A stretch of DNA of 37,746 nucleotides from assembly GCA_902812415.1 (NCBI GenBank), contig CADDZJ010000037.1, positions 1-37,746 on the forward strand. Direction: 5' to 3'. Positions 4,726 to 37,746 of this stretch are shown piece after piece. Each line of letters opens with the position of its first letter. Positions within the stretch are counted from its first letter, which is position 1. Below the pieces are notes generated by a model. It ran no database searches. It was not told the DNA's origin and saw only the letters and a list, made by a program, of their open reading frames with translations. The DNA comes from Acidobacteriota bacterium (GTDB lineage Bacteria > Acidobacteriota > Terriglobia > UBA7540). The translations under genes and the position numbers were made by a program.

Positions 4726-6426
4726 TCACTCCACCCGCACTTTGAAAGAGAAGATCGGATCGATATCCACGGGCACGTCGCTTGCGGCCTTGAGCGCCGT
4801 CGCGAGCTCAGGCGGCATGGCATCGTAGCGTTTGAACCAGGATTCCGCTCGCGCGCGGTCGCCGGTGGCTTCGATTTCAAGCAGAATGCGGGCTAGGCTG
4901 GCAAAGGCTTCAGGCATCCGCGAATAATCCACGCGGTAACGGCCCGAGCTTCGGTCACGGCGGATCGCATTCTGCCCGGAAAGATAGTTGAATTCCATCA
5001 TCTCCGCCTGCCCGTGCGCCTCCGCAGTCCCATAGCGAATCGTGCGAAAGAGGCCCGCAACGTAGGAAGCGTAATAGCCGTCAAGGTCGCTTTGGGGAAG
5101 CGCGCCGTGATCGGTGAGCCATTTCAGTCCGTACATTCCCACGACGTCCGCCTTGGCTTCTTCGAGTCCTGAGAAGATCGGCCCAATGGCCTCACGAATA
5201 TCCATCTGTCGTCCGTTGCGATGAGCGTAATTCGGGCCGAGGCCGTGAGAAATCTCATGCAGGATCGTGAAAGTGAGGTAGCCTTCGCCCGACGCCTTGG
5301 AAGCCTGATCCGGCTGCATCAGGCGCCTGGCGAGCGGCAGGATCACATAATTCACGCGCGCATCCATAAAGTTCTTGAAGAAAATTTTCTTCGTGCCTCG
5401 TTCGACGTGAATGCGCGGATCGTTGGGCAAATTATCCGCCACAGCCTGATAGCCGTGCCGCAGGTCGCCGGCGCGGAAGGGGCTATCCACTACTTCCATC
5501 GGATTCAGATGGCCGCGCTTGGAAGGCCGGTATTCGGGCGGAACCGGCAGGGCGTTTTGGATTTCCGGCACGTATTTCTGGTAGAGCGCGAGCTTCCTGC
5601 TTTCAGCCTCATTGCGAATCAGCACCGCGGCGCCGTAGGACGTCTTCACGCCCAGAACGTCATCAAGATAGGTTTCATAGGGGGCGAAAATTACGTCGAA
5701 TTTGGGGTTCTTTAAATCAAGCCAGGCGAGGTCGCTGGGGAAATAGTTGTCGTTCAAAAGCGCTTCGGCGCGCAGGCGAAGGAATTTGGCAAAAGCGGGG
5801 TCTTCGCTGTGGGCCGCTGCTTTCCGCAAGTTCTGAGCCGCGCGCTCGAGAAAGGGCCTGTAGGCTTCGGTGTAAGGAATTGCCACGAGCTTGTCATCGC
5901 GGCGCCGCACGATGGTATAAGGGCTGTAGATGGCGGCCTTCTGCTCGGGATGCTCGCGGACGTATTGCTCAACCTCCTGGCGCGTCAGACCCTTGGGATA
6001 GAGTCCGCAGTCCGGCGAATAAGGTTCATCGCCGACAAAAGGCGCGTTGTCGTCGATCAGGTCAAATCGCCCGCCGTTGATCACCAGCATCCGCCGGATT
6101 TTATCCGCGAGCGGATTGGCATTTCCTTCAAGCTTTTTATAAAGCTCCAGCCCTTCAGGATCGCTCTGTCGCCAGTAGATGTCGTCCAGTTGCTGTGAGG
6201 CTTCGACCAGCTTTTCCACCAATTGGCGCTCGCGTGAAGTGAAACGCGAGGCGTCGAAGGGCATTTTGACAGGACGCCACTTGGCTAACCGAGCATCAAG
6301 GTCCGGGGCCACCGGCGGAAGTTTTTGAGAAGTCATCGATTTGGATTGAGGCCTCAGGCCGCTCAGGGTCGAAGTTGCCAATAACAATGCCGCCATGGAG
6401 TTACGCCATAAAACACAGTGATTCAT
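4726..6426 (-). CDS. M49-like (dipeptidyl-peptidase III type) zinc metallopeptidase
   Basis: The product has 566 residues. A short hydrophobic N-terminal stretch (MAALLLATSTLSGL, about residues 11-24) suggests export or a lipoprotein-like leader. The zinc site is visible as HEISH (His390, Glu391, His394), followed about 30 residues later by EEAKAD (Glu422-Asp427). That second motif fits the EExxAD ligand signature of the M49 dipeptidyl-peptidase III superfamily, although the first is HExxH-like rather than the classic HExxGH. Bacterial relatives are often described as DPP III family proteins or zinc-dependent hydrolases of unclear substrate. It is encoded upstream of selD on the same strand and downstream of larB, with short gaps, so co-transcription is possible. 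Peptidase activity is inferred from the motifs only. Confidence 0.7.
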   Translation of the reverse strand: MNHCVLWRNSMAALLLATSTLSGLRPQSKSMTSQKLPPVAPDLDARLAKWRPVKMPFDASRFTSRERQLVEKLVEASQQLDDIYWRQSDPEGLELYKKLEGNANPLADKIRRMLVINGGRFDLIDDNAPFVGDEPYSPDCGLYPKGLTRQEVEQYVREHPEQKAAIYSPYTIVRRRDDKLVAIPYTEAYRPFLERAAQNLRKAAAHSEDPAFAKFLRLRAEALLNDNYFPSDLAWLDLKNPKFDVIFAPYETYLDDVLGVKTSYGAAVLIRNEAESRKLALYQKYVPEIQNALPVPPEYRPSKRGHLNPMEVVDSPFRAGDLRHGYQAVADNLPNDPRIHVERGTKKIFFKNFMDARVNYVILPLARRLMQPDQASKASGEGYLTFTILHEISHGLGPNYAHRNGRQMDIREAIGPIFSGLEEAKADVVGMYGLKWLTDHGALPQSDLDGYYASYVAGLFRTIRYGTAEAHGQAEMMEFNYLSGQNAIRRDRSSGRYRVDYSRMPEAFASLARILLEIEATGDRARAESWFKRYDAMPPELATALKAASDVPVDIDPIFSFKVRVE

Positions 6427-6474
6427 CGTGTAGAGTATGACTTTTCCTCAGCCTTGCAGGTTGTGGGACGGATG

Positions 6475-7221
6475 CTACAAGCGATTCATGACGCTGGCGA
6501 GATAGCCGGCGCCGAAGCCGTTATCGATATTAACGACGGCGATGTTGGATGCGCAACTGTTGAGCATGCCCAGCAAAGCCGCAAGGCCGCGGAAACTTGC
6601 GCCGTAGCCCACGCTGGTCGGAACCGCGATTACGGGAACGCCGACCAGCCCGGCCACGACGCTGGGCAGGGCGCCTTCCATGCCGGCCACGCAGATAATG
6701 ATCCTTGCCTCGCGCAGCAGGCGGCTCTCCCCGATCAGCCGATGGATGCCGGCTACGCCCACATCGTAGAGGGCTTGCGCGCTATTTCCCATAATTTCCA
6801 AAGTCACCAGGGCTTCTTCGGCCACCGGAATGTCCGTGGTTCCGGCTGAAATCACCAGCACTTTGCCTTTTCCGCGAATCGTGCGATCCAGCCGAATCGC
6901 AATGGCTCCCGAGAGAGGATGGAATTCCGCTTTCGGAGCGAATTTACGAATTCGCGCGAAGAGTTCTTCGTCACCGCGCGTAATCAGAATATTGTGACGG
7001 CGAGGAAGCATTCGGCGCACGACGCCTTCCACTTGTTCGGGCTTCTTGCCGCGGCCAAAAATCACTTCCGGAAATCCCTGCCGCAGCGACCGGTGGTGAT
7101 CGATTTTCGCATAGCCCAGGTCTTCGTAGGGCAGATCACGAAGCTTTTCCACCGCGTCATCCACGCTGAGCGAGCCACGACGCACCTGCTGCAATAGTTT
7201 TTTGATTTGCTCAGAAGTCAC
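6475..7221 (-). CDS. larB: Nickel-pincer cofactor biosynthesis protein LarB (NaAD carboxylase)
   Basis: The 248-residue product has an N-terminal helical part (about 1-60, with [25 protein letters not shown]) and a PurE/AIR-carboxylase-like C-terminal domain. LarB hallmarks are the sequence following DHHR ([16 protein letters not shown]), then [42 protein letters not shown] and [17 protein letters not shown]. LarB carboxylates and hydrolyses nicotinic acid adenine dinucleotide, the first step to the nickel-pincer cofactor of lactate racemase-type enzymes. LarC, LarE and LarA genes are not in this window. It is followed on the same strand by the M49-like gene after about 50 bp. The product call is confident; the cofactor's client enzyme here is unknown. 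Confidence 0.93.
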
Positions 7222-27853: not shown

Positions 27854-28672
27854 ATGTGCACTCGCATTCTGATGGCGATTCTTTTGACGGCAACGTGCGT
27901 CTTTGGGCAGGGGCTGGTTGGGCCTTCAGCCAGCGCGCCGCAATTGCCGTCCATTGTCACAAGTTCTGATCCGCAAGCCCTGGCCGCGCTCGCTCAGGCG
28001 TTGCAGGCGGCGGGCGGGGCGCAGGCGCTTGGCGCCATTCAGGATTTCACCGCCACCGGCCAGATCACCTATTCCTGGGCGGGCAATCCCGACCAGGGCA
28101 CGGTGACCCTGCGCGGACGAGGGCTGGATCAATTCCGGCTGGACGCGAGTTTGCCGGAAGGGACGCGCTCCTGGGCGGTGAGCCACGGCGTGGGCAACCT
28201 CAAGGAAACCGACGGAACGGAGACCAAAATCTCCGGCCATAACGCCCTTGCGCTGGGATCGCTCACTTTCCCTTATCTGCCGCTCGTGGCCGCCTCGCTC
28301 AATTCCACCACCACGGTTTCCACCGTCGGCACGGTACCGGTGAATGGCGCGAACGCCGTTCAGATTCGCGTCCAGCGGCATTACGCCTCCTCTTATGATC
28401 CCAATGGCCTGATCGCCCAACTGACAACCCGCGATTTCTTCATCGATCCCACCACTTCGCTGATCGTCAAAACCGAGCAGATGACCCATCCCCAGGAAAC
28501 CTTCACCGTCAGCCTGCCGGAAGACATCTCCTTTTCCAACTACCGCGCGGTGAACGGCGTGATGGTTCCATTCACCATCACGGACACCGTGAACGGCCAG
28601 CAGATTTGGACCATTCAGTTGAGCGCAATCCAATTCAACACCGGTCTCACGGATGCGGATTTCTCGCTCTAA
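27854..28672 (+). CDS. Secreted protein of unknown function preceding an RHS gene
   Basis: The 272-residue product has a clear signal peptide: MCTRILMAILLTATCVFGQG, with cleavage likely after FGQ or nearby. The mature protein is rich in Thr, Ser and Gly and predicted beta-strand, with a stretch LAALAQALQAAGGAQALGAI near its start. Its layout (start of mature domain with FTATGQITY, end with LTDADFSL) is reminiscent of LolA-like or outer-membrane lipoprotein-sorting folds, but no diagnostic motif is seen. CAAGGAGG precedes the ATG. The gap to the RHS start is 27 bp, so both are one transcript. It may help export or anchor the RHS protein; that is inference. Confidence 0.75.
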   Translation: MCTRILMAILLTATCVFGQGLVGPSASAPQLPSIVTSSDPQALAALAQALQAAGGAQALGAIQDFTATGQITYSWAGNPDQGTVTLRGRGLDQFRLDASLPEGTRSWAVSHGVGNLKETDGTETKISGHNALALGSLTFPYLPLVAASLNSTTTVSTVGTVPVNGANAVQIRVQRHYASSYDPNGLIAQLTTRDFFIDPTTSLIVKTEQMTHPQETFTVSLPEDISFSNYRAVNGVMVPFTITDTVNGQQIWTIQLSAIQFNTGLTDADFSL

Positions 28673-28699: not shown

Positions 28700-28864
28700 A
28701 TGGAAAGCACATTCTTCGATGCCATCCGAAGCAAGGCATCTCACAGGGCGGAGCGCTATGCAGCGCGCAAGTTTCTTCTGCCCGCGCTCGCGGGCCTGTT
28801 ATGGATGGTTCTGCCTCAATTGGCGCCAGCGCAAAGCTTATATTATCTCTATAACGGCGGGTGA
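28700..28864 (+). pseudogene. Signal-peptide segment of the RHS gene, cut by an in-frame TGA
   Basis: ATG 28700 has a strong AGGAGGAGGGA site and encodes 54 residues with a long hydrophobic export signal (PALAGLLWMVLPQLAPAQS) followed by LYYLYNGG. Then TGA (28862-28864) occurs, and the same frame runs on without break into the RHS protein (PTFLTPEAVERGFVDVANGD). The two parts were clearly one gene. Either this is a nonsense mutation, a sequencing error, or recoding by readthrough. Confidence 0.85.
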
Positions 28865-28903: not shown

Positions 28904-31900
28904 GTGGACGTGGCGAATGGCGATTTGCATCTTGAAATCCCGCTTGCTTCGCCTGCGCAGCGTGGCAGCCTGCCCGCCAACTACAAACTCATCTATGACA
29001 GCCGCATCTGGACCATTGTGAATAATGGAACCTCCAAAAGCTGGCAGCCCACCAATCTATCCGCCATGGGAGTGTTTATCAGCGGAGGATGGTCCTCAGG
29101 GTACGAGGATGGAATCAATACCGGGGTTTTTGAGAACGTGCAATATTGCAACCAGACCTCGTATACCACCTATTATGGGCCAACCCTCTTCATGCTCACC
29201 GACGGCACCGTGAAATTCTTCCCCATTTCCACCCAACAGGATGCCGGTTGTGGCAACTCGAATGTGGCGAGTGGCGACGCCTTCGATCAGCATTCGAGCG
29301 GCTTCCACATGTACGTCACCAACTACACCACGCCCAAGGTTTATGCCAAAGATGGAACCATCCTGATCGACGCCACGCAGAGCGCCTACGGCAGAAAGGA
29401 CTCCAATGGCAACTATTTCACGGCGGATTCCAATGGGAACTTAATCGACACCTTGAATCGAACTCCTGTCACCGGGTCGTGGAACGGCAACACGCTGACC
29501 ATTCCGGTTGAAAACTCTCAAGGCTCCACTTCCTCCTATACTGTTACGGTGGCTAACATCAACGTCAGCACCAATTTTGGCGTCTCCGGCGTCACTGAAT
29601 TTTCCGGCACGATTGAGGTGATCACCAGCATTAAGCTGCCTGACGGTACGAGCTACAGCTTCAATTACGATTCTGGGACTACGGCCGGGCATTATGGCTT
29701 GCTGACTTCCATGACGCTGCCCACCGGAGGAACGATTGATTACAGTTGGGCGAATTTCTCGGATGCCTACGGTACAGTCAATCGCTGGCTGGCCAGCCGC
29801 GCTTCGGGCGGCGGCACGTGGACTTACACTCCCTCGGTCATCACCACGTGCTCCAGCAACCAGGTAGGCTGCCAGCAGAAAGTGACGGAAACCAGGCCCA
29901 GCGGCGATGAAACGGTTTATACGTTCACCTTGAACAACGGCGCGTGGAATACGGAAACGGATTACTACAACGGGTCATCGACTCTGCTGAAGAAGGTGAC
30001 CACCACCTACGATTTCTCGAATGCCTGCCCGGACTGTGGCGGCGTAGGCGCTTCTTATATTCGCCCGACGCAAGTGATCACTTCCATGCCGAGCGCCGGG
30101 TCAACGCTCGAAAGCCAGACCGAATATGGCTATGACAGCATCTATTACGGCAACGTCGCCGCCCAGAAGGAATGGAATTACACCACGGGCACGTTTGGCC
30201 CCACGCCCGACCGCGAGACGGATTATACTTATCTCTCAAGCTCGCCTTATGTGAGCGCCAACATCCTGAATCGGGTGACGGACAAGGTGGTTTACCAGAG
30301 CGGAACAAAAGTGGCGGAAACCCAGACCACCTACGATTCCACCAGCCTCACTTCGGTCGCCGGCATCACCCATCACGATGATACGAACTATGGCACGGGC
30401 AACACGGTGCGCGGCAATCCGACAGTGGTTTCACAATGGGTGAGCGGATCAACTTATCTCACCACCACAAACTACTATGACACGACGGGGCAATTGACGA
30501 AGACCACCGATCCGGCAGGCAACAGCGTCACTTACAGCTATACCGATGATTTCTATAATGACAATGGCTCCGGGCGCCCCACGCCCTATACCTCCTCCGC
30601 TGTCACCCATGCCTATCGGACAGGAATGACTTTGCCGGTCTCCGGTTCCATTTACTACGGCTACTATTTCGGCACCGGACAGGAAGCCGTGATGGATGAC
30701 CAGAACGGCTTTCGCACTTACTACCATTTTTACGATCCGTTCAACCGGCCCACCCAAACCAATTTCCCCGACGGCGGCTGGAAGCTGACTAACTATGCGA
30801 CCACCGCGGTGGGCTACTATACCGGCATTACCGACACCACGCCTTCCATTAATTGTACGGGCTGCCGACATGACCATGTTGATCTTGATGGTCTCGGTCG
30901 CACGATTGACAAGATTCTGTGGAATGATCCTGATGGGAAGACGGAGATCGACATCACCTACGATTCTTCGGGACGCGTAGCAAGTCAGAGTAATCCCTAT
31001 CGCAGCACCTCGGATCCGACTTACGGGCTTGAGACCTACAGCTATGACGGGCTTGACCGGCAAACCAGCGATACGCACCCTGACTCGAACGCGGTCAAGA
31101 CCTACTACGGCGCCAGCGTGACGAGCGGCGGAGGCATTGGCACGCCGTTATGTTCCACCTCGACTTATGGTTATGGATACCCCACGCTGACGGTGGATGA
31201 GGCGGGGCACAAGAGCGAGACCTGGGCCGACGCCTTTGGCAGAACCATCGAAGCCGATGAGCCGGATTCGACCGGCGCGCTCACGTTAGGCACTTGCTAC
31301 AAATACGACGCGCTGAATGATTTGACGACGGTCGCGCAGGGCAGCCAGACGCGGACTTATGCCTATGATGGCCTGGGGCGCAAGACGAGCGAAACCACGC
31401 CTGAAGCAGGCACGACGAATTATTACTACACGACCTCGACAGGCGGCCTGTGCGCGGGCGATGCGAGCAAGGTCTGCCGCCGCACCGATGCGCGCAGCAT
31501 CACCACCACCTACAGCTACGACGCCGAAAATCGGCTGACGCAAAAGAGCTATTCTGACAGCACGCCCACGGCGCAGTATTTCTATGACCAGACGAGCGTC
31601 TGGGGCATGACCACCACCAACCCGAAGGGGCACATGACGCTGGAACGGATTGCAGGCGTGGCCGGCACGGCTTACGTGGCTTACGATCCGATGGGGCGCA
31701 TAACGACAACCTACCAATGCACGCCTTATAACTGCGGCAGCGGTTCGTGGCTGATGAACTACACCTATGATCTGGCGGGGGATGAAACGAGTTGGAGCCA
31801 TCCGCAGGGGTTTACGATCACACAGACGTTTTCCACCGCCCGGCGCATTGCGCAGATCACCAGCACCTATTCCGACTCGGCGCATCCGCCGACCCTGGCG

Positions 31901-33568
31901 ACCATCCACTATGCGCCGCAGGGAGCGATCAGCACGCTGGTGAACGGTTGTGTGGGGACAGGGTGCGCCCAGAGCCAGGAGACGTATGACTACAACAACC
32001 GTTTGCAGCCGGTGCGGATCCAGATCGGGACGACGAGCCAGAGCGCAGCGTTTTCCTGCCGGGTGTACAATTACTACAGCAATGTGACGAACCCCACTTC
32101 GTGCTCGATTCCCTCGCAGGGCACAGGCAATGATCGCAACGTGCGCGGGCGGTACTATCAGGACTCGGCCAACAGTTCCCTCACTCACACCGTGAGTTTC
32201 AGCTACGATCCCACGCACCGGCTGACGGGTTCGGTAGCCACGGGCAATGCCACGCACAATCTGACGTTCACTTACGACCGTTATGGGAACATGACCTGCC
32301 AGACGAACGGTCAGACGCAAGGGCCGTGCCCCAATTATTCGTTCAGCGCTTCCACCAATCGCATTACCACTTCCGGGTTTACTTACGATGCTGCCGGTGA
32401 TTTAACCAACGACGGCGCGCACAGCTACCAGTACGATGCGGAAGGAAGATTGATCAGCGTCGATAATGGCACGACGGCAAGCTACCTTTATGACGCGCTG
32501 GGGCAGCGGGTGGAGACGGAGGTGGGCGGGACATACTCGGAGTATATTTTTAACGTTCAGGGCGAGCCGGTGGGGATCAACAACCGCAGCGGGTGGGTGG
32601 AGGATTATATTCCGCTGGGCGGGCGGCACGTGGCGCACTATCATAGCGGGGCGCATTTTATTCATCCCGATGCGCTGGGGACGACGGGGCAGGTGACGAG
32701 CTACAGCGGGACGATGGAGCAGGATGAGTTGCACTATCCGTGGGGGCAGGAATGGACGATGGTGGGGACGATGGAAGAAGAACGCTTTGCCCGGCTCAAC
32801 CATCGGGATTCCGAAACGAGCCTCGATCCCACGCATTTCAGGATGTACGCTTCCGGCCAAGGCCGATGGATGAGTCCTGATCCGCTCGTAGGCCATCCCT
32901 TTAATCCTCAGACTTTTGATCGCTACTCGTATGTGGGTGGTAACCCCAGCAACTGGGTCGATCCAAGGGGTCTGGATTACTGCGCCACGCCGATTTGGGA
33001 CGATCAAGGAAACTTGATCGGGTATGATCCCAATAGCTGTATCCCTGACGATCAATATGCCGGTCAGTTCGGTTATGCATACGTTGCGCCTCAGATCGTG
33101 AATACGGGATTTCCGCCGACTTCCAACGGCGGCTTCTGGACTGGTCTCATGGGTGTCTGGCAAACTGTCATGAACAGTTTAGGGCCTTCGTCCTCTTGGG
33201 TGTCTAACGTTCCGTGGGCAGGATCGATTACGGGATCATTCCCCGTGGCACCACCGGTTGTTGGCGTGGGGCCGACTATCGTCGGCGCCTACAATCCTTC
33301 CCAGGGGCAGGCCTGTGTAGGTGGAGGACTCGCAGCAACAGTTCCGGGGGTTCCCGGTTCAAAGTCGGCCAACTTCGGCCCTCTACTTTTTGGCAACCAG
33401 ACGAACACATCACAGATATTGAGTGGCTGGAGTCTTTCTGTTGGGATACAGCTGTCACCCGGTGTCGGATACCAATACATAGCGAACAGTAATGGAGTGC
33501 TTTCCGGACCTACTGTGGGAGTTCCGGGTGCGTCAGTTTCATTGACATACTCGACATGCAGCCAGTGA
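28904..33568 (+). CDS. Giant RHS/YD-repeat protein, main open frame
   Basis: At least 1,554 residues. The frame actually continues from 28865, directly after the TGA, so GTG 28904 is only a formal start. An N-terminal region with VANGDLHLEIPLASPAQRGS is followed by an array of YD repeats, such as YDGLDRQTSDTHPD, YDGLGRKTSETTPE, YDAENRLTQKSYSD, YDPTHRLTGS and YDALGQRVETEVGG. These form the RHS shell. The core ends with the conserved YASGQGRWMSPDPL and WVDPRGL at about residue 1353. A variable Gly/Ser-rich tip of about 200 residues follows, with no toxin motif that I recognise. Proteins of this type are surface or secreted in acidobacteria. Without the upstream signal it could not be exported by Sec. 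Confidence 0.9.
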   Translation: MDVANGDLHLEIPLASPAQRGSLPANYKLIYDSRIWTIVNNGTSKSWQPTNLSAMGVFISGGWSSGYEDGINTGVFENVQYCNQTSYTTYYGPTLFMLTDGTVKFFPISTQQDAGCGNSNVASGDAFDQHSSGFHMYVTNYTTPKVYAKDGTILIDATQSAYGRKDSNGNYFTADSNGNLIDTLNRTPVTGSWNGNTLTIPVENSQGSTSSYTVTVANINVSTNFGVSGVTEFSGTIEVITSIKLPDGTSYSFNYDSGTTAGHYGLLTSMTLPTGGTIDYSWANFSDAYGTVNRWLASRASGGGTWTYTPSVITTCSSNQVGCQQKVTETRPSGDETVYTFTLNNGAWNTETDYYNGSSTLLKKVTTTYDFSNACPDCGGVGASYIRPTQVITSMPSAGSTLESQTEYGYDSIYYGNVAAQKEWNYTTGTFGPTPDRETDYTYLSSSPYVSANILNRVTDKVVYQSGTKVAETQTTYDSTSLTSVAGITHHDDTNYGTGNTVRGNPTVVSQWVSGSTYLTTTNYYDTTGQLTKTTDPAGNSVTYSYTDDFYNDNGSGRPTPYTSSAVTHAYRTGMTLPVSGSIYYGYYFGTGQEAVMDDQNGFRTYYHFYDPFNRPTQTNFPDGGWKLTNYATTAVGYYTGITDTTPSINCTGCRHDHVDLDGLGRTIDKILWNDPDGKTEIDITYDSSGRVASQSNPYRSTSDPTYGLETYSYDGLDRQTSDTHPDSNAVKTYYGASVTSGGGIGTPLCSTSTYGYGYPTLTVDEAGHKSETWADAFGRTIEADEPDSTGALTLGTCYKYDALNDLTTVAQGSQTRTYAYDGLGRKTSETTPEAGTTNYYYTTSTGGLCAGDASKVCRRTDARSITTTYSYDAENRLTQKSYSDSTPTAQYFYDQTSVWGMTTTNPKGHMTLERIAGVAGTAYVAYDPMGRITTTYQCTPYNCGSGSWLMNYTYDLAGDETSWSHPQGFTITQTFSTARRIAQITSTYSDSAHPPTLATIHYAPQGAISTLVNGCVGTGCAQSQETYDYNNRLQPVRIQIGTTSQSAAFSCRVYNYYSNVTNPTSCSIPSQGTGNDRNVRGRYYQDSANSSLTHTVSFSYDPTHRLTGSVATGNATHNLTFTYDRYGNMTCQTNGQTQGPCPNYSFSASTNRITTSGFTYDAAGDLTNDGAHSYQYDAEGRLISVDNGTTASYLYDALGQRVETEVGGTYSEYIFNVQGEPVGINNRSGWVEDYIPLGGRHVAHYHSGAHFIHPDALGTTGQVTSYSGTMEQDELHYPWGQEWTMVGTMEEERFARLNHRDSETSLDPTHFRMYASGQGRWMSPDPLVGHPFNPQTFDRYSYVGGNPSNWVDPRGLDYCATPIWDDQGNLIGYDPNSCIPDDQYAGQFGYAYVAPQIVNTGFPPTSNGGFWTGLMGVWQTVMNSLGPSSSWVSNVPWAGSITGSFPVAPPVVGVGPTIVGAYNPSQGQACVGGGLAATVPGVPGSKSANFGPLLFGNQTNTSQILSGWSLSVGIQLSPGVGYQYIANSNGVLSGPTVGVPGASVSLTYSTCSQ

Positions 33569-33585
33569 CAAGTACGAGGGGCACG

Positions 33586-34098
33586 ATGACATACGTTCTC
33601 TATTCCATTTGGGTTGTTGCCTTCCTGGCAGTAGGGCTCTGCTTAGCCTTTTTCCCGGGAAAATTCTCTCAGTTTTGGCGTTGGTACGTAAAGCTAGGCA
33701 AATCGTCGATGCCTGATTCTCCGTCTTGGAAGCCTGGGCTAGGTCTCCGATTTGCTGGCCTCGCAATGATTCTCTTCGCGATCTTTATGCTGAGGCCGAT
33801 AACCTCGATGATAGTGAAGGATGGACGTCAGCGAATTGTGCATGTAGCGGGTCTATCGATACATCGTTACGCTCTTGGATGGCCGAATTTCGCTTTTGGA
33901 ATACTTCTAGTTACGGGAGGGCTTTTTTCCATAATCAAGCCTCTTCGGGTGGGCGTTTGGTTTGCCAGCCAATTTTCGCATCAGTCGCCCCCGATGGATG
34001 CCGCCCGGCGCGCTAAGGAGGGTATGCGCTTAATGGGATGTTTGTTCGTGGCAGCCGGAATCTATCTGATTTATATAGTTCTTAAAGTTCGCGGCTAA
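33586..34098 (+). CDS. Small membrane protein downstream of RHS gene
   Basis: Unrecognised. The ATG at 33586 has GAGGGG upstream and starts MTYVLYSIWVVAFLAVGLCL, an N-terminal helix; the 170-residue product has about four hydrophobic segments (near 5-25, 50-65, 100-115 and 145-165). An in-frame ATG at 33556 overlaps the RHS stop and is less likely. It begins 17 bp after the RHS stop, where immunity or accessory genes of RHS systems normally sit. No known immunity motif is visible. The IS630 element lies 6 bp after its stop. The DNA is more AT-rich than the RHS core, a sign of separate origin. Confidence 0.65.
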   Translation: MTYVLYSIWVVAFLAVGLCLAFFPGKFSQFWRWYVKLGKSSMPDSPSWKPGLGLRFAGLAMILFAIFMLRPITSMIVKDGRQRIVHVAGLSIHRYALGWPNFAFGILLVTGGLFSIIKPLRVGVWFASQFSHQSPPMDAARRAKEGMRLMGCLFVAAGIYLIYIVLKVRG

Positions 34099-34104
34099 GG
34101 ATGC

Positions 34105-35313
34105 TAGTGATATGTCCGGTAATTAGCTGGACAACTGATTTTTTCTCTTTCGGTGGCGCGGCTGAGTACAGCCGGGCTGAATCTGTTCCAGAGTCTGGCG
34201 GCAGCGGGAGAGTTTTTGCATAATCGATTCCACGGTGGCCGTCCAAACGAAGGGTTTGGGATCGCCGTTCCATGTGTCCAGGAACTCCATGATGGCGTTT
34301 TGTAGATCCTCGACGCTGTAGAACGATCCCCGGCGCACCCGCTTATTCGTCAGCTCGGCAAACCACCGTTCCACTAGATTGAGCCAACTGGAACTGGTGG
34401 GCACGAAGTGAAGGACGAAGCGAGGATGGCGACGGAGCCAAGCCCGAACCTGGGGCGTATGATGGGTGCCATAGTTGTCCATCACCAGATGCAGCGGTAC
34501 TTCACCGGGAAACTCCTCATCTAAACGACGCAGAAACTTCAGCCATTCCTGATGCCGATGGCGGGCGTAGCACTGACCGATCACTCGGCCCTGCAAAAGC
34601 TCCAGGGCGGCAAACAAGGTAGTCGTTCCGTTGCGCTTGTCATCATGCGTCATCGTCCCGCAACGCCCTTTTTTCAAGGGCAGACCGGGCTGCGTGCGGT
34701 CTAGCGCCTGGATTTGGGATTTTTCATCCACGCACAGCACAATCGCCTGCTGCGGAGGATTCAGGTAAAGGCCTGCGACATCGGTCAGCTTCTCCAAGAA
34801 CTTGGGGTCGCGGGACAGCTTAAAGGTCTTCACCCGGTGCGGTTTGAGATGATGGCTCCTCCAGATATTGCTCACCGTGGACTTGCTCACCCCTTGGCTT
34901 TTCGCCATGAGCCGGCAACTCCATTGCGTCGCCCCCTTCGGCTTGGTTTGCAAGGTGGCATCCACGATGGCTTTGACTTTGTCCGCGTCGTAGAGAGGCT
35001 TGCGTCCCCGGCCGGGGGCTATCTCCCAGAGGCTGTCCGGGCCCTGTGTGGCGAAGCGCTGACGCCACATGATTACGGTCTTGCGATTGATCCGAAGCTG
35101 CTCGGCAATGGCGGTGTCGGACTGGCCTTCGGCGGCCGCCAGTACGATTCGGCCGCGGAGCACCACTTGTTGCGGTGTTCCCAGTGCCTTCACCCATTGC
35201 TGAATCTGGTGCTGGCCTTCGGAATTCAAGCTCAGAGCAGGGGCTGTTCGAGGCATGAGTGAGCATAAATCGAATCCAGTCATTTGTCCAGCTATTTGTT
35301 GGACACAACACTA
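34105..35313 (-). mobile_element. IS630-family insertion sequence, apparently complete
   Basis: The element is bounded by TA at 34105-34106 and 35312-35313, the expected TA target duplication. Imperfect terminal inverted repeats are visible: left GTG-TATGTCC then AGCTGGACAA-TGA, right (reverse) GTGTTGTGTCC then AGCTGGACAAATGA. It carries one transposase gene and no passenger. It separates the small membrane protein from the orphan RHS tip. Confidence 0.88.
34123..35283 (-). CDS. IS630-family transposase
   Basis: The 386-residue product is intact. The N-terminal half is a helix-turn-helix region (VLRGRIVLAAAEGQSDTAIA, INRKTVIMWRQRF, then GVSKSTVSNIWRSHHLKP). The C-terminal half is a DDE endonuclease domain with VDEKSQIQALDRTQP (first Asp), HLVMDNYGTHH (second Asp) and SSSWLNLVERWFAEL (Glu). 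Its length fits the fused single-frame type of IS630. The start at ATG 35283 is inside the right end; ATG 35256 is an alternative. No frameshift or stop is visible, so it may be active. Confidence 0.95.
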   Translation of the reverse strand: MTGFDLCSLMPRTAPALSLNSEGQHQIQQWVKALGTPQQVVLRGRIVLAAAEGQSDTAIAEQLRINRKTVIMWRQRFATQGPDSLWEIAPGRGRKPLYDADKVKAIVDATLQTKPKGATQWSCRLMAKSQGVSKSTVSNIWRSHHLKPHRVKTFKLSRDPKFLEKLTDVAGLYLNPPQQAIVLCVDEKSQIQALDRTQPGLPLKKGRCGTMTHDDKRNGTTTLFAALELLQGRVIGQCYARHRHQEWLKFLRRLDEEFPGEVPLHLVMDNYGTHHTPQVRAWLRRHPRFVLHFVPTSSSWLNLVERWFAELTNKRVRRGSFYSVEDLQNAIMEFLDTWNGDPKPFVWTATVESIMQKLSRCRQTLEQIQPGCTQPRHRKRKNQLSS

Positions 35314-35684
35314 GGTGGACCTTTTGGGGTGTTGGCGGCAGCATAAGTTGGGGCGTTGGTGCCACAGGTTCAATCTACGGTGGCCCGAGCCCGGATGGGT
35401 CAGTTACTGTGTGGACTGGTGGCTTTACTTTTGGAGCGCCAGGCGGTTCCCTTAATTACGGCGGGTCAGTCACGGGCATAGTTCCCATCAATGTTAATCC
35501 CTATTCTGGATACCCGTATTCTGGTCAGCCACAGCAAACTGTGAACATATGGGATCCAAACTTTGATCCGGAAAGTACTATTGAGTATGACCCGTATAAC
35601 ACAATCGTAACTGTTGAGGGTGGCTCTCCAGGTTACGTCGATACTCTCTATGTTCCGGTTGATGAGCAGTGGCTTTATTGCTGA
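35313..35684 (+). pseudogene. Orphan RHS C-terminal tip, 5'-truncated
   Basis: Immediately after the IS an open frame reads RWTFWGVGGSISWGVGATGS and continues with Gly/Ser-rich strands (GGFTFGAPGGSLNYGGSVTG) to a Tyr/Pro/Asp-rich end and a stop at 35682-35684. Its style resembles the tip of the RHS protein at 33300-33568. Joining the DNA across the IS gives no start codon: the frame hits TAG at 34076 within the membrane-protein gene. So it was already a headless fragment before the IS arrived. An ATG at 35259 inside the IS end could give a 141-residue hybrid. Displaced tips are known at RHS loci of other bacteria. Confidence 0.6.
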
Positions 35685-35820
35685 TGGTGGACATTGCAAA
35701 CTACACTTGCTGCGATAAATAGCCGCCTCATCTTCCTTAACGAGGCGTTTGGTTGGTTATATCCTCGGCACAAAGGAATTATTCATTGGGGGATACAGAA
35801 TCACTCACGGCGGAATGCAT

Positions 35821-36465
35821 ATGGAATGGAAAGAATACATATGGTCCAGACGTGCTCTATACCACGCGATACTGAATGCCATTGTAATTGGACTTCTGGT
35901 CGTCGTGGTGTTACACGGGGATGCCTTTCATCACGTGATACCGTCTTGGATAAAAGGTGTGGGTTTTGGGTTGTGGTTGCTTGTGCTTGCTGGCGCAGTC
36001 GTACCAATCATGCGTTACAGGGAGCGCGTGATTCTACAGGACGTCACTACAGAACAATTCCGGATGGAGCCCGGAGAACAACTGCTCCTGCGCCTCAAAT
36101 TATTTGTATGCTATTTCTATCCTCACGCTCAGGATTTCAAACCGAAGATTCCTTTTCGATACTGCTTTCAGGTGAAGCCTCCGTTTTGGATGACGCCTAT
36201 GCTGACAATCTGTCTCACGGATCGGCGCTTGGCGGCGCGATCTATATCGGGCTACACTTGGCGGGTTATCCCTTTTTCAGACATTCGGCAAGTTGAAAAC
36301 ACATACCACGCTCCATTCATGTCCGTTAGGAGTGTGCTGGTAGTTGAATATGAGTTTAAGGGCCGGCGCGAAGCCATAGTCCTACCTGATAATTCCATTG
36401 AAACTCACAAATTGGCAAATTTGTTGAGCGAGCTGACGCGCACAGGTAGCCGGAACGATCTCTGA
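35821..36465 (+). CDS. Membrane protein with C-terminal PH-like domain, unknown function
   Basis: The product has 214 residues from ATG 35821 (MEWKEYIWSRRALYHAIL, GGCGGA 6 bases upstream); ATG 35749 would add 24 unconvincing residues. Two membrane helices lie near residues 16-34 (ILNAIVIGLLVVVVL) and 42-64. The cytoplasmic C-terminal part has MEPGEQLLLRLKLF, then LTICLTDRRLAARSI, WRVIPFSDIRQVENTY and a final helix. That order (strand, LTxRRL, IPxSDIxxVE) is typical of bacterial PH-like/GRAM-like domains. It lies 11 bp upstream of the glycosyltransferase gene. An immunity role for the orphan tip is a guess from position. Confidence 0.6.
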   Translation: MEWKEYIWSRRALYHAILNAIVIGLLVVVVLHGDAFHHVIPSWIKGVGFGLWLLVLAGAVVPIMRYRERVILQDVTTEQFRMEPGEQLLLRLKLFVCYFYPHAQDFKPKIPFRYCFQVKPPFWMTPMLTICLTDRRLAARSISGYTWRVIPFSDIRQVENTYHAPFMSVRSVLVVEYEFKGRREAIVLPDNSIETHKLANLLSELTRTGSRNDL

Positions 36466-36476
36466 CTAGGGAGGTC

Positions 36477-37586
36477 ATGAGAGTGCTTTCATCTTTCTCG
36501 GGAGATAAAGTCGGGCTGCTGTTCTTTTCCCGTGGCCGAGGGCATGGCCATGCCATCCCCGACATGGCTATTGTCGATGAGCTATTCAAGCTGCAAGATG
36601 ATATTGATCTGAGGTTTGTTTCTTATGGAACCGGAGCGAGAACTTTCGCTCAACACGGGAGGCCATTAATCGATCTGGAATTGCCAGATACCAATCCGCT
36701 CTGGGCCACGGCTGTTCGCGCCGGTTCGCTCATCCGTGAGATACAGCCCAGCCTGGTCATTTCCCACGAAGAATTTGCCGTGTTGCCCCTGGCAAAAATC
36801 TTCGGCATTCCGACGGTGTTCATTACCGAATGGTTCAGCGATGCGGAAAGCCTGCCCATGCAGGCGCTGGAATTTGCTGACGAGATTATCTTTATCGAAG
36901 ATGAAGGAATCTTCGAGGAGTCGCCTTCGGTTGAAGGGAAAGTTTACTATACCGGGCCGGTACTGCGCTCATTTTCCTACGGGCGAGCTGACCGTGAGCG
37001 CGCCCGGAAAGAGCTTGGATTTCCCCAAGACGCCTCCGTGATTCTGGTGGTGCCCGGGGGGTGGGCGACTGAAGAGAAGGAGCCCATTTACGATCTGCTG
37101 TTGGCTGCCTTTGACCGGCTGAGAGTTCCCCACAAACTGTTGGTGTGGCTTGCAGGCAGCGATTACGCCACATTGAGAGAACGCCTTGCTGGCCGTGAGG
37201 ATATGCAAGTGAAAGAATACGATTGGCAGATGGACCGGTTGATGGCAGCCAGCGATATAGCCATTACCAAGGCCAATCGCATCACATTGAAGGAACTTGC
37301 GGCTTTGGGCATTCCGTCAATCTCCATTTCGCAGGGCCGCAACCCCATTGACGACGTGCTGATTGAGCGCATTCCCACCAACACTACTCTGGATGCGCGA
37401 ACAGTAACTCCCAGGATGCTGGCTGCCAGCATAGCTGAGAGCCTGAAACAAGCCAGAGATCAGGTTGAGCCCTTGCCCGCCGGTCCGCCCGACAATCCGG
37501 GCGCACGGTTCGCCGCCCAGAGACTTGCAGGTTACATTGAGAAGCTAAAGGCGGTTGCCCCGACAACTGCCTCCCATCGCGTATAG
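36477..37586 (+). CDS. GT-B fold glycosyltransferase, MurG/GT28-like
   Basis: The product has 369 residues; the ATG has GGGAGG 4 bases upstream. The N-terminal domain begins GLLFFSRGRGHGHAIPDMAI, a Gly/His-rich loop typical of MurG-like acceptor domains. The C-terminal domain has VILVVPGGWA, then ASDIAITKANRITLKELAAL and GIPSISISQGRNPIDD, matching the sugar-nucleotide donor site of GT28/GT1-like enzymes (E-hydrophobic-GxP pattern). No signal peptide or membrane helix is visible, so it is cytoplasmic. Donor and acceptor are unknown. It lies between two RHS pieces; whether it belongs to the RHS locus or is a passenger is open. Confidence 0.8.
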   Translation: MRVLSSFSGDKVGLLFFSRGRGHGHAIPDMAIVDELFKLQDDIDLRFVSYGTGARTFAQHGRPLIDLELPDTNPLWATAVRAGSLIREIQPSLVISHEEFAVLPLAKIFGIPTVFITEWFSDAESLPMQALEFADEIIFIEDEGIFEESPSVEGKVYYTGPVLRSFSYGRADRERARKELGFPQDASVILVVPGGWATEEKEPIYDLLLAAFDRLRVPHKLLVWLAGSDYATLRERLAGREDMQVKEYDWQMDRLMAASDIAITKANRITLKELAALGIPSISISQGRNPIDDVLIERIPTNTTLDARTVTPRMLAASIAESLKQARDQVEPLPAGPPDNPGARFAAQRLAGYIEKLKAVAPTTASHRV

Positions 37587-37598
37587 GTTCAGCGCAGG

Positions 37599-37746
37599 AT
37601 TTATCGCACAATCCCAACAGGCGGCCTGTGCGCGGGCGACGCGAGCCAAGTCTGTCGCCGCGCCGATGCGCGCAGCATCACCACCACCTACAGCTACGAC
37701 GCCGAAAACCGCCTGACCTCCAAGACCTATTCTGACAGCACGCCAG
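37599..37746 (+). pseudogene. Second RHS core fragment, starting in mid-gene and cut by window edge
   Basis: From about 37599 the DNA matches 31420-31567 of the RHS gene, closely from TGGLCAGDAS onward (then CRR, DARSITTTYSYDAENRL, SDSTP). There is no start codon or signal peptide; the frame follows the stop of the glycosyltransferase directly. It is therefore a headless duplicate of the RHS core that runs beyond the window. Confidence 0.85.

Follow-up and report, generated by a model that had tools for sequence, protein, structure and literature searches.

We identified an RHS locus in a draft genome of a soil bacterium of the phylum Acidobacteriota which quite probably is a polymorphic toxin locus composed of a shell, a variable toxin tip, an immunity gene and downstream remnants (Table 1). 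The window, i.e., the whole stretch of DNA analyzed (37,746 nucleotides), is the complete contig C37 of this 4.84-Mb draft of 261 contigs. In the explanation we favor, the large gene encodes an RHS shell behind a signal-peptide ORF, and export would take place by Sec. The tip would be freed from the shell at the DPxGL motif and act on the cell envelope of a competitor, and the neighboring gene with four predicted transmembrane (TM) segments would protect the producer as an immunity protein. The downstream part would consist of remnants of earlier or alternative versions of the module, namely a displaced tip (tip 2) and a membrane gene belonging to it, which an IS630 element separates from the main module, and a core piece without a head. 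The cassettes of related genomes all have their own copy of the core end, at which recombination would join a new tip and immunity gene to the full gene.

Table 1. Features of the RHS locus, with positions in the window.
Feature	Position	Strand	Evidence
Signal-peptide ORF, 54 aa	28700-28861	+	Sequence and translation; same frame as RHS gene; TGA 28862-28864 closes the ORF
RHS shell/core	28904-32974	+	PF05593, E 1.8e-24; TIGR03696, E 1.9e-12; DPRGL at core end
Core stretch copied at 37607-37744	31429-31566	+	Direct repeat D1, 88% over 138 nt (ungapped alignment); 91% over 128 nt
Tip 1, 197-aa variable C-terminal domain, candidate toxin	32975-33568	+	Homologs in G031, G004, G013 and G008; alignment
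Candidate immunity protein 1 (imm1), 180 aa, four predicted TM segments	33556-34098	+	Homologs adjoin tip 1 homologs; TM count
IS630 with inverted ends	34107-35311	-	NF033545, E 3.4e-78; inverted repeat I1; TA at 34105-34106 and 35312-35313
Orphan tip 2, without core and without own start codon	35316-35684	+	Reading frame
Candidate immunity protein 2, two predicted TM segments, bPH-like	35749-36465	+	Location behind tip 2; sub-threshold match to PF06713 (E 0.011); TM count
MurG/LpxB-type glycosyltransferase	36477-37586	+	PF04101, E 1e-5; recurrent beside RHS cassettes in G024 (L058-L060)
Headless RHS core fragment	about 37602-37746	+	Homology to main core and to relative's core; contig end cuts the fragment

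The RHS reading frame (28904-33568) starts with a GTG at 28904 and is open over 1,554 codons. Its matches to the RHS repeat (PF05593) and to the RHS-associated core domain (TIGR03696) both exceed the curated cut-off, and the core is closed by the motif DPRGL (32960-32974), after which the tip follows. RHS_repeat was the only Pfam family found, no PAAR domain was matched at the N-terminus, and a search of the protein against PDB sequences gave no match. The upstream signal-peptide ORF has a hydrophobic segment at residues 25-43. An earlier description of the RHS gene as a full gene holds for the single frame from the GTG onward, but not for the signal-peptide ORF, which is severed from it by the in-frame TGA. 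This stop codon may be a mutation or a consensus error, and because it lies in frame after the signal peptide, the main RHS gene may be dead or mis-sequenced. The full-length gene of the related genome G005 has a signal-peptide-like start. Just 5' of the RHS gene and on the same strand lies a gene (27854-28672) whose 272-aa product has a hydrophobic segment at the N-terminus and gave no family match above the cut-off.

The imm1 gene starts at 33556 and overlaps the end of the tip 1 gene by 13 nt. Separate searches of 39 genomes of the family identified tip 1 homologs in four other genomes and imm1 homologs in three, and in G013, G004 and G008 the two matches lie about 160 nt apart or less. A more diverged tip 1-imm1 pair is found side by side in locus L055, and L054 carries a similar membrane gene that matches imm1 only weakly (E 0.01). 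Beyond the family, searches of 396 genomes of the phylum gave weak, broken or partial matches only for both proteins. Single-sequence structure models of tip 1 and tip 2 were uninformative (pLDDT about 32). From the conserved pairing and the evidence from relatives described below, we infer that tip 1 is most likely an antibacterial toxin and the product of the overlapping four-TM gene its immunity protein.

The sequence-only reading had noted that 31420-31567 is closely repeated at 37599-37746 and that the second copy begins in mid-core right after a glycosyltransferase gene, and both observations were borne out. The best-matching segments (31439-31566 and 37617-37744, 128 nt) are 90.6% identical in DNA (E 2e-45), and homology of the fragment to the core of a relative (L071) begins at 37601, about 15 nt past the stop codon of the glycosyltransferase gene (37584-37586). 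Over 48 codons compared between the two core copies there are eight synonymous changes, and 12 substitutions fall within seven amino-acid-changing codons. The order of the genes between the copies was likewise as described earlier: the tip end, a membrane gene, IS630, a headless tip, the bPH-like membrane gene and the glycosyltransferase gene. The window ends with the contig, and therefore the sequence to the right of position 37746 is unreadable. No continuation of the fragment was found by homology on other contigs of the genome, its last 17-31 nt are absent from the six RHS loci of the same genome that were compared, and none of the other genomes of the genus searched contains the right part of the locus. 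The contig stops inside the fragment, and RHS repeats end the contigs of many relatives too, as would be expected if a read end had been misjoined at a repeat to give the fragment, with no second copy in the genome. We consider such an assembly artefact very unlikely, since about 9% of positions differ between the fragment and the main copy, so that the fragment is not a copied read of the latter. Headless cores also lie beside unrelated genes in other assemblies, e.g., on a 305-kb contig (L050) and in MAG JOPF029, and the glycosyltransferase adjoins RHS cassettes in G024 as well. Copies of this gene are next to RHS cassettes on three G024 contigs (L058 1-261, L059 2908-3030 and L060 2538-2701), one of them degenerate. 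As it accompanies RHS cassettes in a second genus as well, the glycosyltransferase may be a regular passenger of RHS arrays.

The IS630 element has a transposase (34123-35283), terminal inverted repeats and a TA target duplication. Tip 2, on its right side, is headless and lacks start signals and is followed by a small membrane gene at 35749, which fits the layout of orphan rhs-CT/rhsI modules. No relatives of tip 2 were found in the 39 family genomes, and no convincing relative of the bPH-like protein in the 396 phylum genomes. A relationship between tip 2 and tip 1 was ruled out (BLASTP E 3.5; hhalign probability 1%). The core stretch which would permit recombination is missing from tip 2, and no tip can be read in the right fragment, which consists of core; because tip 2 keeps no piece of core, it could not be reloaded via core recombination. 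The GC content is 0.570 for the core, 0.573 for IS630, 0.55 for both tip 1 and the glycosyltransferase, 0.51 for tip 2, 0.50 for imm1 and 0.48 for the bPH-like gene. According to the earlier reading, all elements between the two copies exceed the core in AT content. This is correct for imm1, tip 2 and the bPH-like gene, but not for IS630, and the glycosyltransferase and tip 1 are barely lower in GC. AT-richness was rejected as a general sign of foreign tips: base composition is not diagnostic because the tip is below the GC content of its core in just 34 of 59 cassettes of relatives.

Elsewhere in the same genome, two core scraps of about 190-200 nt without tips are present on contigs C16 and C103 (L012 559-757 and L013 8065-8251), which share 85-86% DNA identity with the core of the window and sit among unrelated genes. 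Because these scraps carry no tip, it is a real possibility that the right core fragment may also be a dead scrap. Together with the in-frame TGA after the signal peptide and the headless tip 2 severed by IS630, they fit an explanation in which the locus is decaying RHS debris, with the main gene a pseudogene and the tip, fragment and scraps dead leftovers of recombination kept by drift. We regard this as rather unlikely, since the remainder of the main frame is open, tip 1 and imm1 are undamaged and their pairing is conserved in other genera, and the tips and neighboring genes of relatives are generally open; debris and a live main module may also exist together. The picture of a locus caught in the act of rearrangement was not supported either, given a tip 2 without core, a fragment cut by the contig end, tipless scraps on C16 and C103 and an in-frame stop in the RHS gene.

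The interpretation of the window as a polymorphic toxin locus draws on the RHS loci of related genomes. TIGR03696 cores are present in 32 of the 39 family genomes, often several per contig. Using a core-end model, 71 core ends were located in 29 loci of 16 genomes, including 18 further stretches. At least 62 of these 71 core ends are headless with a stop codon upstream, mostly bearing different tips, and only four are preceded by 800 or more in-frame residues. As many as seven core ends lie on one strand of an array. When the 63 tips of sufficient length were compared, 48 clusters resulted (E 1e-4), and across the 16 genomes the tips diverge after DPxGL. Copies of the core within one genome can be highly similar and yet carry unrelated tips, as found in G024 (97.2% over 579 nt), G005 (93.4% over 595 nt) and G009 (92.5% over 571 nt). 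Ninety-two pairs from the same genome reach 85% identity or more; they are not independent because the arrays have a common history. In these pairs DNA homology ends mostly within a few nucleotides of DPxGL or about 124 nt past it, apart from a few outliers. The +124 nt junction comes mainly from G015, the cassettes of which have a common linker of about 41 residues. Homology ending at set positions is the pattern expected of repeated tip exchange at fixed junctions, that is, a pattern rather than an exchange seen taking place. An unrelated second pair, consisting of a tip and a 147-aa membrane protein, is common to G024 and MAG JOPF029 (42% identity for the tip and 39% for the membrane protein). 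The RHS core in JOPF029 is headless as well, beginning at residue 759 (numbering of the window protein) right after a 6-phosphogluconate dehydrogenase-like gene. Some tip cassettes of G031 are flanked by repeats of about 100-140 nt with 93-98% identity (L053 1-140/1262-1401 and 1059-1165/2142-2248), which may represent a dispersed repeat with a role in the movement of cassettes. The earlier proposal that recombination between repeated cores swaps C-terminal tips is therefore well supported by sequence comparison for the family, with copies of up to 97% identity over 579 nt, unrelated tips and two junctions; at the window locus itself tip exchange would be assumed by analogy.

Pfam searches with the 63 tips identified two phage-type lysozymes (E 7e-29 and 3e-24), two YkuD tips (one just above the cut-off, with an additional match to Tlde1 at E 3e-12, and one below it), one phospholipase-A2-like domain just below the cut-off (E 1e-4) and one further, sub-threshold match to a cell-wall hydrolase. 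Nuclease or deaminase families were not matched by any of the 63 tips, and 58 of them lack a recognizable toxin domain. The gene directly after the lysozyme tip in L077 of G015 (5538-7014) encodes a C-terminal LprI lysozyme-inhibitor domain (E 5.5e-19), which is good evidence that the tips of the relatives are toxins and the neighboring genes immunity genes. Two or more TM segments are predicted for 33 of 62 genes following a tip compared to 17 of 136 controls (Fisher P 4e-9), the control being a rough one made of ORF ends in a few loci and a simple hydropathy rule. HELG-type motifs occur in three tips (L081 3268-3873, L084 2827-3468 and L090 3908-4384) without a family above the cut-off, which suggests that these tips could be metalloprotease toxins. 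The sequence-only reading had proposed a comparison of the tips with polymorphic toxin families, and neither tip 1 nor tip 2 matched a known toxin family. This result, and the Gly-rich tips which might be cell-surface modules, would also agree with a structural or adhesive surface protein with non-toxic variable ends. Such a role seems improbable to us, as array tips of relatives are lysozyme, Tlde1/YkuD and PLA2-like enzymes, one of which adjoins a gene with a lysozyme-inhibitor domain, and the downstream genes are paired with the tips.

The organization of the probable polymorphic toxin locus resembles that of rhs-CT/rhsI and cdiA-CT/cdiI orphan modules, in which a full gene with tip and immunity gene is followed by headless tips without start signals, a core stretch is sometimes kept, IS elements are found in orphan tips and tips switch after DPxGL. 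For CDI/Rhs orphans, headless modules, IS insertions therein, loss of the core stretch in some and the DPxGL boundary have been described (Poole 2011, PMC3150448). The main and orphan rhs genes of Salmonella LT2 share 522 bp at 95% identity, with evidence of recombination (Koskiniemi 2014, PMC3967940), compared to 97% identity over as many as 579 nt in G024. Unlike these orphans, the locus is found in an Acidobacteriota host and has a signal-peptide ORF and no PAAR match, and the family has a second switch point about 124 nt past DPxGL, mainly in one genome. In addition, the orphan tip of the window has no core piece, whereas a core stretch is common, although not required, in typical orphans. 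PAAR-Rhs effectors of the type VI secretion system (T6SS) also have an RHS core with DPxGL and a variable tip, and a T6SS sheath gene is present in this genome. The signal-peptide ORF sets the window apart from these effectors, and T6SS delivery is unsupported by the anatomy because there is no PAAR match. The sheath gene is absent from the drafts of the array-rich genomes G013, G015, G031, G005 and G007.

Standalone toxin-immunity cassettes which recombine onto a constant 5' body have been described across phyla, as have L,D-peptidase tips on RHS proteins, and acidobacteria are among the hosts of several toxin and delivery types (Zhang 2012, PMC3482391). The most prevalent toxins in that survey target nucleic acids; in contrast, none of the 63 tips analyzed here is a recognizable nuclease or deaminase, and the recognized ones are envelope-acting. 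Teneurin-like bacterial proteins combine a YD-shell with variable C-terminal toxins past a PxxxxDPxG cleavage site and with immunity genes, occur in few species per phylum, and include one tip that blocks growth only with a signal peptide and acts on membranes (PMC13018210). The YD shell, the variable tips and the associated candidate immunity genes are shared with the loci described here. However, the FN-plug and NHL features of the teneurin-like proteins were not seen, Pfam having matched RHS repeats only, and their presence in few species per phylum differs from that of RHS cores in this family (32 of 39 genomes). No description of such arrays in Acidobacteriota was found in the literature searched, which lay mostly outside subscription journals.

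A broader reading, which we put forward tentatively and hold somewhat below even chances, is that the family holds large, T6SS-independent, Sec-exported and envelope-specialized RHS arsenals with swaps at fixed junctions and with membrane or periplasmic immunity, in which tip 1-imm1 would be a new membrane-acting family. The tips of such arsenals would comprise wall hydrolases, L,D-transpeptidase-like enzymes, lipases and membrane-active domains, and the junctions would be DPxGL or the end of the linker of about 41 residues.

Orphan toxin-immunity modules are a known kind of system, previously worked out in enterobacteria; new are their scale in Acidobacteriota, the second junction and, possibly, the bias toward the envelope. 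The two conserved candidate toxin-immunity pairs are available and simple to assay, and the lysozyme tip of L077 with its LprI-domain gene could serve directly as a positive control when toxicity and immunity are assayed. RHS repeats also help to explain breaks in the draft genomes of this family. The presence of RHS cores in most genomes of the family, often arrayed as up to seven cassettes, points to a large and little-studied antibacterial arsenal in a phylum that is abundant in soil, an arsenal which mostly escapes annotation through the scarcity of recognizable toxin domains in its tips.
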